This document shows, piece by piece, positions 6,966-30,702 of a DNA stretch of 30,963 nt. Positions within the stretch are counted from its first letter, which is position 1, and the number at the start of each line of letters is the position of its first letter. The DNA is from Sphingomonadales bacterium. Its GTDB lineage: Bacteria > Pseudomonadota > Alphaproteobacteria > Sphingomonadales > Sphingomonadaceae. The translations under genes and the position numbers were made by a program. Under the pieces are notes generated by a model that worked only from the letters and a program-made list of their open reading frames with translations, ran no database searches and was not told the DNA's origin. The stretch covers positions 1 to 30,963 of the forward strand of contig JAIVHR010000163.1 in the NCBI GenBank assembly GCA_020200935.1, given 5' to 3'.

Positions 6966-7041
6966 GCCGCTTTAGCTCAGCTGGTAGAGCATCGCATTCG
7001 TAATGCGGGGGTCGTTGGTTCGAGTCCAACAAGCGGCACCA
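6966..7041 (+). tRNA. tRNA-Thr (anticodon CGT)
   Basis: The gene is 76 bases long including an encoded CCA (7039-7041). The acceptor stem GCCGCTT (6966-6972) pairs with AAGCGGC (7031-7037), and the discriminator is A7038. The D-arm contains AGCTGGTAGAGC. The anticodon stem TCGCA/TGCGG encloses the loop TTCGTAA, with anticodon CGT at 6999-7001, which reads the threonine codon ACG. The T-arm contains GGTTCGAGTCC. All stems close properly, so this is a functional-looking tRNA. No integrase or truncated copy is visible nearby, so there is no evidence that it serves as an integration site here. Confidence 0.97.
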
Positions 7042-16894: not shown

Positions 16895-16995
16895 CGCATT
16901 TTCCCGATTGCGCGGCGCTGAAAAGCCGATAAATCTCCGCCCCCGGAGCCGCCCGGCCATCCCGGCCGCCAGTTGTGCCTCCCGGACATGCCGCC

Positions 16996-18561
16996 ATGAT
17001 CTTCGGACGGGTCAAGCCGCTCGACGCGATCCTCGCAACCGCCGAGAAGAAAGCGCTCCATCGAACCCTCGGGCCGATCCAGCTGATGCTGTTCGGCATC
17101 GGCTGCATCATCGGCACCGGCATCTTCGTGCTGACCGCGGCCGGCGCGCAGAAGGCCGGGCCGGGGCTGATGCTCGCCTTTATCATCGCCGGCGCGGTCT
17201 GCATCGTCGCCGCGCTCTGCTATGCCGAGATCGCGGCGATGATCCCGGTCGCGGGCTCGGCCTACACCTACAGCTATGCGACGATGGGCGAATTCCTCGC
17301 CTGGACGGTCGGCTGGGCGCTGGTGCTCGAATATGCGATCGCCGGCAGCGCCGTCTCGGTCGGCTGGTCGGGCTATTTCACCGGCACGATATTGAACCAG
17401 TTTCTGGGCATAAGTCTGCCGCCCTGGCTCAGCGCCGGGCCGCTAGCGCTGGGCGGCGCTCCGGGCGGGTTGATCAACCTCCCGGCGCTCGTCATCGCGC
17501 TGCTCGTCACCTGGCTGCTGATGATCGGCACCAGCGAAAGCGCCAAGGTCAACGCCGTGCTCGTCGCGATCAAGGTGGCCGCGCTGACCGCCTTCATCGT
17601 GCTGACCCTGCCGGCGATCGAGCTCGAGCGCTTCAACCCGTTCCTGCCTGCCGGCATGTTCGGCGGCTTCGGCACCGGGCTCGGCGCGGTCGGCGCGGCG
17701 GCGACGATCTTCTTCGCCTATGTCGGCTTCGATGCGGTCTCGACCGCCGCCGAGGAGACCAAGAACCCGCAAAGGAACGTGCCGATCGGGCTGGTCGGAT
17801 CGCTGCTCTTCTGCACCGTCTTCTACATCCTTGTCGCCGCCGGCGCGATCGGCACGATCGGCGGCCAGCCGATCATGGGCCCCGGCGGCGTGCCCTTCCC
17901 GGCCGGCTCGGAAGAGCTCGCCCGGCAATGCGCGATGCCGCAACATGCCGAGGCGCTGGTCTGTTCGAACGAGGCGCTCGCCCATGTGCTGCGCCAGATC
18001 GGCTTTTCGGGCGTCGGCAACCTGCTCGGCATCGCCGCCTTCGTCGCTCTGCCGAGCGTGATCCTGGTGCTGCTCTTCGCCCAGACGCGCATCTTCTTCG
18101 TCATGAGCCGCGACGGGCTGCTGCCCGAATTCCTCTCCAAGGTGCACCCCAAATGGAAGACGCCCTATGTCGTCACCGCGATCACCGGGGTCGCGGTCGG
18201 CCTCGGCGCGGCCTTCTTCCCGGTCGGCCGGCTCGCCGACATCGCCAATGCAGGGACGCTCTACGCCTTCGCCGCGGTGGCGATATCGGTGATGCTGCTC
18301 AGGCGGCGCGATCCCGAGCGGCAACGCCATTTCCGCGTGCCGGCGCTGTGGCTGGTCGGCCCGCTGGCGATCGGCGGCTGCCTGTTTCTGTTCCTCAACC
18401 TGCCGACTGCGGCGATGCTGATGGTGCCGATCTGGACCGCGATCGGCCTCGTCATCTACGGCCTCTACGGCTACCGCAAGAGCCATCTCGGCAAGGGCCG
18501 GATCGAGGTCCACGAGCTCGAGATCGAGGATCTCGAACCGCCGGTCCCGGGGACGGAGTAG
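16996..18561 (+). CDS. APC-family amino acid permease
   Basis: This inner-membrane transporter has 521 residues and about 12-14 hydrophobic segments. TM1 has the unwound APC signature GIGCIIGTGIFVLTA (about residues 35-49). Next comes CYAEIAAMIPVAGSAYTYSY, and a VGFDAVSTAAEETKNPQRNVP loop after TM6, typical of the cationic amino acid transporter (CAT/YfnA) branch. The first residues, FGRVKPLDAILATAEKKALHRTLGP shortened here to its ends, form a cytoplasmic tail like that of relatives. The C-terminal tail is charged. The ATG at 16996 starts at that tail; a GTG at 16975 would add seven residues, and neither has a strong Shine-Dalgarno. The substrate is probably an amino acid. An intrinsic terminator within the following repeat (18771-18799) ends this strand's transcription. 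Confidence 0.92.
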   Translation: MIFGRVKPLDAILATAEKKALHRTLGPIQLMLFGIGCIIGTGIFVLTAAGAQKAGPGLMLAFIIAGAVCIVAALCYAEIAAMIPVAGSAYTYSYATMGEFLAWTVGWALVLEYAIAGSAVSVGWSGYFTGTILNQFLGISLPPWLSAGPLALGGAPGGLINLPALVIALLVTWLLMIGTSESAKVNAVLVAIKVAALTAFIVLTLPAIELERFNPFLPAGMFGGFGTGLGAVGAAATIFFAYVGFDAVSTAAEETKNPQRNVPIGLVGSLLFCTVFYILVAAGAIGTIGGQPIMGPGGVPFPAGSEELARQCAMPQHAEALVCSNEALAHVLRQIGFSGVGNLLGIAAFVALPSVILVLLFAQTRIFFVMSRDGLLPEFLSKVHPKWKTPYVVTAITGVAVGLGAAFFPVGRLADIANAGTLYAFAAVAISVMLLRRRDPERQRHFRVPALWLVGPLAIGGCLFLFLNLPTAAMLMVPIWTAIGLVIYGLYGYRKSHLGKGRIEVHELEIEDLEPPVPGTE

Positions 18562-18573
18562 GTATAAATGAGG

Positions 18574-18792
18574 CCCCCTCCCCTTCAGGGGAGGGAGTGT
18601 CGGGTCGAAATGTCCCCCGGACATTTCTGAACCTTGCGGGGCAAGGTTCACCCGACACTGGGTGGGGCAAGAGGCGGCAAGGGCTCGATGCCCTTGTCGG
18701 CTCTTCGAGCGCACCATTAACTGGATCGCGCGATTCACGCTCGCTTCCGCTCGCTCTGCACCCACCCCAACCCCTCCCTTGAAAGGGAGGGG
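18574..18792 (+). repeat. Composite intergenic repeat, copy 1 (with three-way-junction module)
   Basis: The element opens with the hairpin CCCTCCCC-TTCA-GGGGAGGG (18576-18595) and closes with CCCCTCCC-TTGAAA-GGGAGGGG (18771-18792). From about 18660 it carries a core (GGTGGGGCAAGAGGCGG onward, with the internal hairpin CAAGGGC/GCCCTTG) that is identical for more than 35 bases to the copy at 30566. Unlike copy 2, it contains a 62-base structured module (18597-18658) between the opening hairpin and the core. It fills the gap between two converging genes. Confidence 0.85.
18597..18658. other. Three-way-junction palindrome module
   Basis: Three perfect 9-bp stems are nested. The outer stem pairs GTGTCGGGT (18597-18605) with ACCCGACAC (18650-18658). 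Hairpin B pairs GAAATGTCC (18607-18615) with GGACATTTC (18619-18627), loop CCC. Hairpin C pairs GAACCTTGC (18629-18637) with GCAAGGTTC (18641-18649), loop GGG. Only single bases (18606, 18628) lie at the junctions. The CCC and GGG loops could pair. It has no protein-coding potential; the function is unknown. Confidence 0.85.
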
Positions 18793-18799
18793 CTTTTTT
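18771..18799 (+). terminator. Intrinsic terminator
   Basis: CCCCTCCC (18771-18778), loop TTGAAA, GGGAGGGG (18785-18792), one C, then six T (18794-18799). This is an 8-bp GC-rich stem with a T-run in the correct position for + strand transcripts from the permease. The T-run overlaps the stop codon of the converging pfkB remnant. Confidence 0.85.
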
Positions 18800-19552
18800 A
18801 GGCCAGCCTCTCGGCGATCCGCGCCTTGAGGTCCGCCTCGGGCCGCGGGCCGACATGCTGGATCACCTCGGCGGCGCAGATTGCGCCCATCGTCAGGCAA
18901 TCCCCGACCGACCGCCCCTCGGCGATACCCTGCAGGAATCCGGCGGCGAACTGGTCGCCGGCGCCGGTCGCATCGACGAGCTTGTCGATCGGCTCGGCGG
19001 CGACTTCGCTGCGCGCGCCATCCTTGACCGCGATGGCGCCCTTCTCGCTGCGCGTGACGACCAAAGTCGGCACTTTCCCGGCCGTCTTCGCCACGGCCTC
19101 GTCGAAATCATCGGTCTGCTGCAAGGATTTGATCTCATCCTCGAGGCGCCGAGAAAGGTGTTCATCGTCCGCTCGCCGTCGGGGGTGACGAGGATCAGGC
19201 AGCGCGCGGTCGGCGGCTCGCCCTCTCGCTTCTCTGTCGCGAAGGTGACGCCCAATGCCCGGATATCGTGCTCGAAGACTTCGCCGAGCTGGTCGTCGGC
19301 GACCTGGCCGATAAAGCCGGTCTTGCCGCCGAGCGCCGCCATGCCGGCGATCGTGTTGGCCGCCGATCCGCCGCTGGTCTCGACCGCCTGGCCCATCTTC
19401 GCATAGAGCGCCTCGGCCTCCTCGGTCGTGAAAAGCAGCTGCATCGCGCCCTTGGTGAGGCCTTCCTCGGCGATGAAGGCGTCGTCGGCATGGGCGATGA
19501 CATCGACGATGGCATTGCCGATGGCGACCACGTCGAGGGTGGGCTGGGTCAT
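18798..19552 (-). pseudogene. PfkB-family sugar/adenosine kinase, internal deletion and frameshift
   Basis: The N-terminal half from the ATG at 19552 is a normal PfkB kinase of the adenosine-kinase-like type: LDVVAIGNAIVDVIA, the substrate-site SGGSAANTIAGMA, and DGERTMNTFLGAS. After LGAS (about base 19150) the frame turns to nonsense. In another frame the sequence resumes with EDEIKSLQQTDDFDEAV and continues with the catalytic-base and anion-hole motif DATGAGDQFAAGFLQG (second PfkB signature) to the stop at 18798. Relatives have about 330 residues; the two parts total about 250. Some 70-80 residues between LGAS and the EDEIK segment therefore seem deleted out of frame, removing part of the central sheet. 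It would have phosphorylated a nucleoside or sugar. In the current state it is probably inactive. Confidence 0.82.
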
Positions 19553-30538: not shown

Positions 30539-30702
30539 CCCCTCCCCTTCAGGGGAGGGGTAGGGGTGGGGCAAGAGGCGGCAAGGGCTCGATGCCCTTG
30601 CCGGCTCTTCGGAAGTGCCGGCTCTTCGGAAGCGAACTCCGAAGCCGGCATCGAACCGGCTTCTCCGTCACCAACCCCCTCCCCTCCCTTAAAAGGGAGG
30701 GG
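30539..30702 (+). repeat. Composite intergenic repeat, copy 2 (without three-way-junction module)
   Basis: It opens with CCCCTCCCC-TTCA-GGGGAGGGG (30539-30560) and closes with CCCCTCCC-TTAAAA-GGGAGGGG (30681-30702). The core from 30566 is the same as that at 18660 for more than 35 bases, with the internal hairpin CAAGGGC/GCCCTTG. The opening hairpin is followed almost directly by the core, whereas copy 1 has 62 structured bases there. Additional GGCTCTTCGGAAG repeats lie near 30602-30635. The closing hairpin lacks a T-run, unlike copy 1. Confidence 0.82.

Follow-up and report, generated by a model that had tools for sequence, protein, structure and literature searches.

The window analysed here is a 30,963-nt stretch of DNA from a Sphingomonadales bacterium (contig JAIVHR010000163.1 of assembly GCA_020200935.1). 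Within it lies a 64-nt cassette that folds into a three-way junction and belongs to a family of such folds, in which the loops and the junction are fixed, the stems covary, the host repeats are varied, no gene is present and 4 nt of the host site are replaced by the cassette. The window cassette is probably a copy of a Sphingomonadales mobile DNA cassette that is non-autonomous and whose folded strand is recognized in trans. The fold consists of the following parts.

18596–18659, forward strand: three-armed, three-way-junction cassette of 64 nt, identified by folding and by its match to covariance model R1 (88.6 bits)
18596–18605 with 18650–18659, forward strand: outer stem, 10 bp
18607–18627, forward strand: hairpin 1, with arms 18607–18615 and 18619–18627 and loop CCC
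18629–18649, forward strand: hairpin 2, with arms 18629–18637 and 18641–18649 and loop GGG

All 28 pairs of the window cassette are Watson–Crick, and C18606 and T18628 are the sole unpaired bases at its junction. The initial annotation had drawn the same junction, loops and unpaired bases, and to that extent it is confirmed; its 9-bp outer stem and 62-nt unit are corrected here to 10 bp and 64 nt. The segment 18590–18665 folds at −41.1 kcal/mol as RNA (z −4.5) and at −26.3 as DNA (z −7.0), and none of 200 shuffles folded equally well in either case. The fold is symmetric with respect to strand, in that either strand presents the CCC loop first and the GGG loop second, and for this reason the model picks up most copies in either orientation. 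At the Rfam 15 gathering score the cassette had no match in the window, the sole match there being a tRNA (6966–7038), and seven further loci were likewise without a match in Rfam.

The host site is present in the window in both the filled and the empty state, as set out below.

18574–18792, forward strand: composite host repeat around the cassette, with a hairpin at both ends (inverted pair 18575–18595 and 18772–18792)
18576–18595, forward strand: left host flank, with the hairpin CCCTCCCCTTCAGGGGAGGG; an identical 20 nt is found at 30540–30559
18660–18696, forward strand: right host flank; an identical 37 nt is found at 30564–30600
18771–18792, forward strand: right end hairpin of the composite, a putative terminator
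30540–30600, forward strand: empty copy of the host site of the cassette, recognized by flank identity
30560–30563, forward strand: GTAG, the four bases occupying the place of the cassette in the empty copy

It is apparent that identical flanks of 20 and 37 nt enclose the 64-mer in one copy and four bases in the other. A comparable pair of states was found in cobN. The cassette of Sphingomonas parapaucimobilis cobN is translated in frame, and the 12 orthologous loci obtained from 80 matching genomes comprised two filled loci, nine empty loci and one from which the host repeat was absent. For four empty loci the alignment breaks at base 573 and restarts at 638, with exactly four bases between.

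The comparison was extended to 160 distinct filled sites, and in the DNA compared 106 of these had an empty relative whose gap was 4 nt. The corresponding control value was about 14, obtained by re-dealing the right flanks three times (43 gaps of 4 nt in total). Thirty copies in unusual hosts were also chosen, and 4 was the clear commonest gap for nine of these. Examples of unusual hosts with a 4-nt gap (left flank/gap/right flank) are GAGACC/CCAG/CTTTCG, GTCGAAA/TGGC/GTATCG, TTCTCGACG/GACG/CTTCTCG, TTCGCCCTG/AGCC/TGTCGAAGG and GTCACGGGAT/TCAC/TCCCGTGAC. Within a single genome, cassettes that are only 1–3 bases apart in sequence occupy different host repeats (G183 L208/L209, G092 L211/L212 and G170 L202/L207). 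Conversely, one host repeat has been hit at several places: the window copy replaces GTAG, and many others replace GGAG six bases earlier.

The 4-nt length could not be predicted from hairpin symmetry alone; no peak was seen, 155 of 174 sites giving a weak result or none and one giving 4. We think that this prediction failed because the retained arms were too short and the cut-off too strict, and direct comparison with empty relatives was used in its place. At one locus of genome G107, only G261 spans the orthologous place, and there the whole composite repeat is missing (49 nt versus 262).

A covariance-model search, which the initial annotation had proposed, found more copies and revealed a dispersed 64-nt family. 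The 11 copies used to build model R1 (10 distinct rows) include 10 from the window's own genome; loop variants may escape it, because it scores letters as well as pairs. In the same genome (66% complete) R1 gave 24 rows, with both strands counted, and 13 distinct cassettes were among those listed, while the composite region 18560–18810 gave 59 matches. Matches to the model were found in 29 of the 199 genomes searched from the taxonomic family to which the window belongs. A sample of the phylum, searched with stricter filters by which weak matches are lost, gave 7 of 299 genomes, all in that family. A pattern scan of named genomes returned at least 115 stretches, and all 115 listed are from the Sphingomonadales (Sphingomonas, Sphingobium, Sphingopyxis, Allosphingosinicella, Citromicrobium, Parasphingopyxis and other sphingomonads). 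Because the pattern used for this named set fixes the junction and loop letters, the set was not used to judge invariance.

Seven matches were obtained among plasmid records, all from S. parapaucimobilis and one of them spanning 24 bases only. The records of strain YK209 that are labelled as plasmids (NZ_CP155749–NZ_CP155759) carry sufB, ccmC, cobN and similar genes, and some may therefore be pieces of chromosome. No cassette was matched in phage records, and 17 IMG/VR contigs matched a cassette pattern. On contig 1 of G107 (3.38 Mb) all 12 cassettes were found within 1.69–3.28 Mb, which may be chance. A different fold with three arms (GAGGGTGGT...ACCACCCTC type), lacking the CCC and GGG loops, was also seen in G107 (L249 at about 7550 and L261 at about 14595). 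No description of the cassette was found in the literature searched, PMC3733652 included, in which subscription journals were thinly represented.

The stems of the cassette vary in a concerted manner. In the 11 seed copies 97.5% of cells were paired, and both-side changes had occurred at 17 of the 28 pairs; the covariation score was reached by none of 500 shuffles, and pairing was only 32–39% when the partner was slid by one to three columns. Nearest neighbours were also compared, at no more than six differences a pair and with chance defined as random placement on variable positions. The 33 pairs of model-found copies showed 30 compensated changes, versus 3.35 both-side hits expected by placement, along with 42 one-sided changes, four changes at unpaired positions and three both-side changes without full Watson–Crick pairing. 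For the 57 pairs of pattern-found copies the values were 61 compensated and 60 one-sided, with 5.46 expected, and a mixed set of 150 copies contained 95 compensated changes.

The loops and the junction, judged on model-found copies only (figures for 150 and 152 copies mix both sets), are nearly invariant. Among 57 distinct model-found 64-mers each of the eight unpaired bases was constant in 55 to 57: the count was 56 for the unpaired C, 55 for the unpaired T, 57, 56 and 57 for the bases of CCC, and 57 for every base of GGG. The junction pairs beside these bases were equally steady. In fitted model-found copies the CCC loop was present in 71 of 74, as was the GGG loop. Scans by geometry alone found CCC together with GGG in 73 of 78 folds from DNA retrieved by BLAST or according to model, family or place, in 132 of 138 folds from pattern-fetched DNA, and in 6 of 13 folds from an even sample of 1.6 Mb across five cassette-rich genomes. 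The other seven of these 13 were judged by eye to be one cassette-like fold with another second loop and six other repeats or chance folds. The initial annotation had tied its junction to the existence of further copies, to stems that do not decay and to loops that stay complementary, and it has stood up well: copies exist, the stems covary and the loops remain CCC and GGG. The invariance of the loops fits kissing between them and contact with a protein equally.

The cassette tends to end in CT, the first pair being A–T in 107 and the second G–C in 128 of 152 copies (mixed set). Six copies have, by eye, an outer stem of about 18–21 bp, with AG...CT retained at the ends. G·T mispairs outnumbered A·C mispairs (65 versus 40, p 0.02), a weak excess because the copies are related and kinship was uncorrected. 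In two copies of G000 (L011 and L012) half-changes of the outer stem are reciprocal (A with G and C with T), a pattern that suggests an exchange of halves between two cassettes.

Gene context was determined with our own gene caller for 128 copies, from which 29 in open frames and 7 lacking a neighbour were set aside. The 92 with two clear neighbours lay in 63 tandem, 25 convergent and 4 divergent spacers; background gaps over 60 nt numbered 211, 75 and 76, respectively. Divergent spacers are therefore avoided (4 of 92 cassettes versus 76 of 362 gaps, p 5e–5). Between tandem genes the cassette was oriented with the genes in 35 cases and against them in 28. Orientation relative to replication, assigned by hand from GC skew and motifs resembling FtsK-orienting polar sequences in five genomes, showed no significant bias (15 versus 27, p 0.09); 5 of 47 copies were excluded because they were unclear or lay too close to a turning point, and a single weak match was left uncounted. 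Two of the six S. parapaucimobilis places inspected are inside annotated coding sequences. In that species, cassette-bearing composites are translated in frame within CobN and cysteine desulfurase (L366 and L368), and the cobN genes of several relatives contain additional repeats of the same kind as the cassette-bearing composite.

In the window, the composite is located between an amino-acid permease gene (16975–18561) and a pfkB-type kinase gene on the opposite strand. Its right end hairpin is terminator-like, since a T run comes next. The region 18565–18800 folds at −143.2 kcal/mol (z −10), a stability that reflects the embedding of the 64-mer in a larger palindromic repeat. The pfkB-like frame 18893–19552 (minus strand; region 18801–19552) covers just profile positions 16–117 of 302, and an apparent remainder of the kinase lies downstream on the minus strand in another frame; a frameshift in the gene or an assembly error there may therefore be the cause.

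No gene was found inside the cassette. Left halves of the cassette, searched in 10 genomes, were within full cassettes in 65 of 66 cases. An insertion sequence (IS)-like parent, with a gene between separated halves, was not found in these 10 genomes; the stray left half (in G138) had no model match. No flanking tetranucleotide outside the stem was shared, by eye, among 179 copies. Two candidate partners were rejected on co-occurrence: reverse transcriptase (10 of 29 cassette genomes, p 0.44) and IS110 (15 of 29, p 0.024, weak and uncorrected for kinship).

Of the enzymes that might move such a cassette, HUH (histidine–hydrophobic–histidine) enzymes, including the repetitive extragenic palindromic (REP)-associated tyrosine transposases (RAYT), and DNA gyrase are considered as candidates only. 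The specific proposal that the cassette, as a folded strand, is mobilized by a Y1 HUH enzyme (RAYT or IS200/IS605 type) is unlikely, though several observations favour it. CT is the site at which TnpAREP cuts folded REP strands, and the enzyme contacts loops and mispaired bases (PMC8266576), and the cassette tends to end in the same dinucleotide. Y1 genes were present in 15 of the 29 cassette genomes versus 17 of 170 others, and RAYT-like genes, sorted by hand, in 12 of 29 versus 13 of 170 (p 1.5e–5, kinship uncorrected). Against this, 14 of the 29 cassette genomes lack a Y1 match, and none of 30 Y1 loci (36 places listed) had a cassette within about 1.5 kb, so that no RAYT or Y1 gene was a neighbour of the cassette at these 30 loci. 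The RAYT-like gene of the window's own genome has a different flanking repeat, and the replication-strand orientation noted above also speaks against this enzyme. We know of no HUH insertion in which 4 nt are removed, and this too is counted against it. The repeats at the RAYT-like gene of the window's own genome (L222, 1340–1425 and 2130–2225) are near-identical, inverted, on both sides and of the GTGACAGTGCACTTAATT type; by eye, they belong to a separate repeat system that has no relation to the cassette. A dedicated enzyme might be dispensed with altogether, if gyrase or another activity making breaks with a 4-base stagger opened repeat hairpins, repair inserted a cassette copied from elsewhere, and conversion spread it. 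Gyrase leaves 4-base 5′ overhangs and is enriched on the bacterial interspersed mosaic elements (BIME-2) of Escherichia coli, with a preference for the loops and unpaired parts of REPs (PMC6379681). The replaced length and the host repeats fit such a course, and the flanks shared by filled and empty repeats would allow conversion; it is nevertheless a distinctly unlikely explanation, as it leaves the fixed loops and junction within freely varying stems unaccounted for.

Two further explanations were considered. A structured RNA element at gene ends, acting in either orientation as a stabilizer or processing site, would agree with the strand symmetry of the fold, the avoidance of divergent spacers and the excess of G·T mispairs. 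The same avoidance would also suit an insert that harms promoters, tandem gene pairs show no orientation bias, and neither the 4-nt exchange nor the two copies within reading frames would be explained, so that this role appears very unlikely. Of the roles offered by the initial annotation, a transposition-related unit agrees with the 4-nt replacement at many sites, whereas an RNA role bound to one strand is not supported by the 35 to 28 split. Still less probable is the maintenance of pairing by mutation, whereby template switching keeps quasi-palindromes perfect without selection. Copies two bases apart often have both changes on one pair, as that process predicts, and the reciprocal half-changes of L011 and L012 also favour it. 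Perfect arms accompany a drifting loop in one of the seven cassette-like folds in evenly sampled DNA. Drift of the loops and junction would be expected, yet these are near-invariant in model-found copies, and the 4-nt exchange is again unexplained.

The reading of the cassette as mobile DNA recognized by its fold must also be set against several results that weigh against it. One-sided stem changes are as frequent as compensated ones, and the seven cassette-like folds in evenly sampled DNA include the one with a different second loop. None of the 30 Y1 loci adjoins a cassette. The filled and empty cobN orthologues are from different species, and any present-day movement is putative. Gaps of 3 and 5 nt were found at 62 and 51 of the 160 sites (control totals of 33 and 34 over the three re-dealings), although runs of G and C permit off-by-one readings. 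Among the 30 unusual-host copies, four gave mixed gaps and another 17 lacked a 4-nt relative; for 6 of these 17 the flank used falls inside a longer outer stem.

For the cassette as a mobile element, the following mechanism is envisaged. An enzyme acting in trans would know the folded single strand or an extruded cruciform by its CCC and GGG loops, its GGT/ACC junction and the C·T flank of hairpin 1, and would swap the cassette for 4 nt in repeat hairpins. The arms would stay matched since badly folded copies go unmoved, perhaps aided by the copying of one arm from the other. A bolder possibility, advanced tentatively, is that mobile DNA of a new kind is represented here, in which a three-way-junction cassette without any gene is recognized by its shape, takes the place of exactly four bases in a repeat hairpin, by a replacement reaction distinct from transposon target duplication, and has its arms renewed as matched pairs. 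Among known systems, integron attC sites are recombined by IntI as a folded strand, at the core site.

Comparison with other repeats places the cassette near several of them. It shares with miniature inverted-repeat transposable elements (MITEs) a short, gene-less, dispersed and mostly intergenic occurrence with inverted arms (PMC10969869), its 64 nt having paired ends that correspond to the terminal inverted repeats. A target-site duplication is absent: 4 nt are replaced and direct repeats are missing from the flanks, as seen in the window, at cobN and for 106 of the 160 sites. It further differs from MITEs in its three-way junction with fixed loops and in its covarying stems, and because the stems covary its ends are held by pairing more than by sequence. 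It is classed here as MITE-like in behaviour and is not counted among the MITEs proper. With REPs, REPINs, BIMEs and their TnpAREP enzyme (PMC8266576) it has in common a palindromic folded-strand substrate, CT beside the fold and a possible importance of loops and mispairs. The cassette differs in carrying two hairpins on an outer stem and in lacking a conserved GTAG before the fold, and REP-like repeats are its target. Two traits of REPtrons (REP/RAYT systems) are also missing, since no repeat of the cassette family flanks any of the 30 Y1 loci and no conserved tetranucleotide (GTAG or similar) was seen by eye at the foot of the hairpin in 179 copies.

The nearest elements in form are the mitochondrial double-hairpin elements and GC clusters, which, with the hairpin elements of sponges, are short, GC-rich and mobile-looking (PMC10085805, PMC4478555, PMC2800124). 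As described in those sources, the stems of the yeast and sponge elements are conserved and their loops vary, the opposite of the cassette, and yeast GC clusters have short direct repeats on their flanks. Rickettsia palindromic elements are likewise palindromic and occur in frame in protein genes (PMC10969869), as does the cassette at two of the six places inspected; those elements measure about 150 bp and are known for inserting into coding sequence, whereas the cassette is 64 nt and mostly intergenic. IS elements whose insertion sites are REP sequences (PMC1525189) share REP-like targets with the cassette but carry a transposase gene, and the cassette carries none.

If this interpretation is true, the sphingomonads harbour a mobile element that is defined by its fold more than by its sequence, and whose arrival replaces four bases and duplicates none, unlike the target duplication of transposons. 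The exact pairs of filled and empty sites, one of them in the window, provide a clean assay for the enzyme search, and the family separates the parts kept for recognition (loops and junction) from those that are free to vary (the letters of the stems). The cassette may also partly explain the mosaic structure of REP-like repeats, as well as short in-frame inserts in proteins such as CobN.
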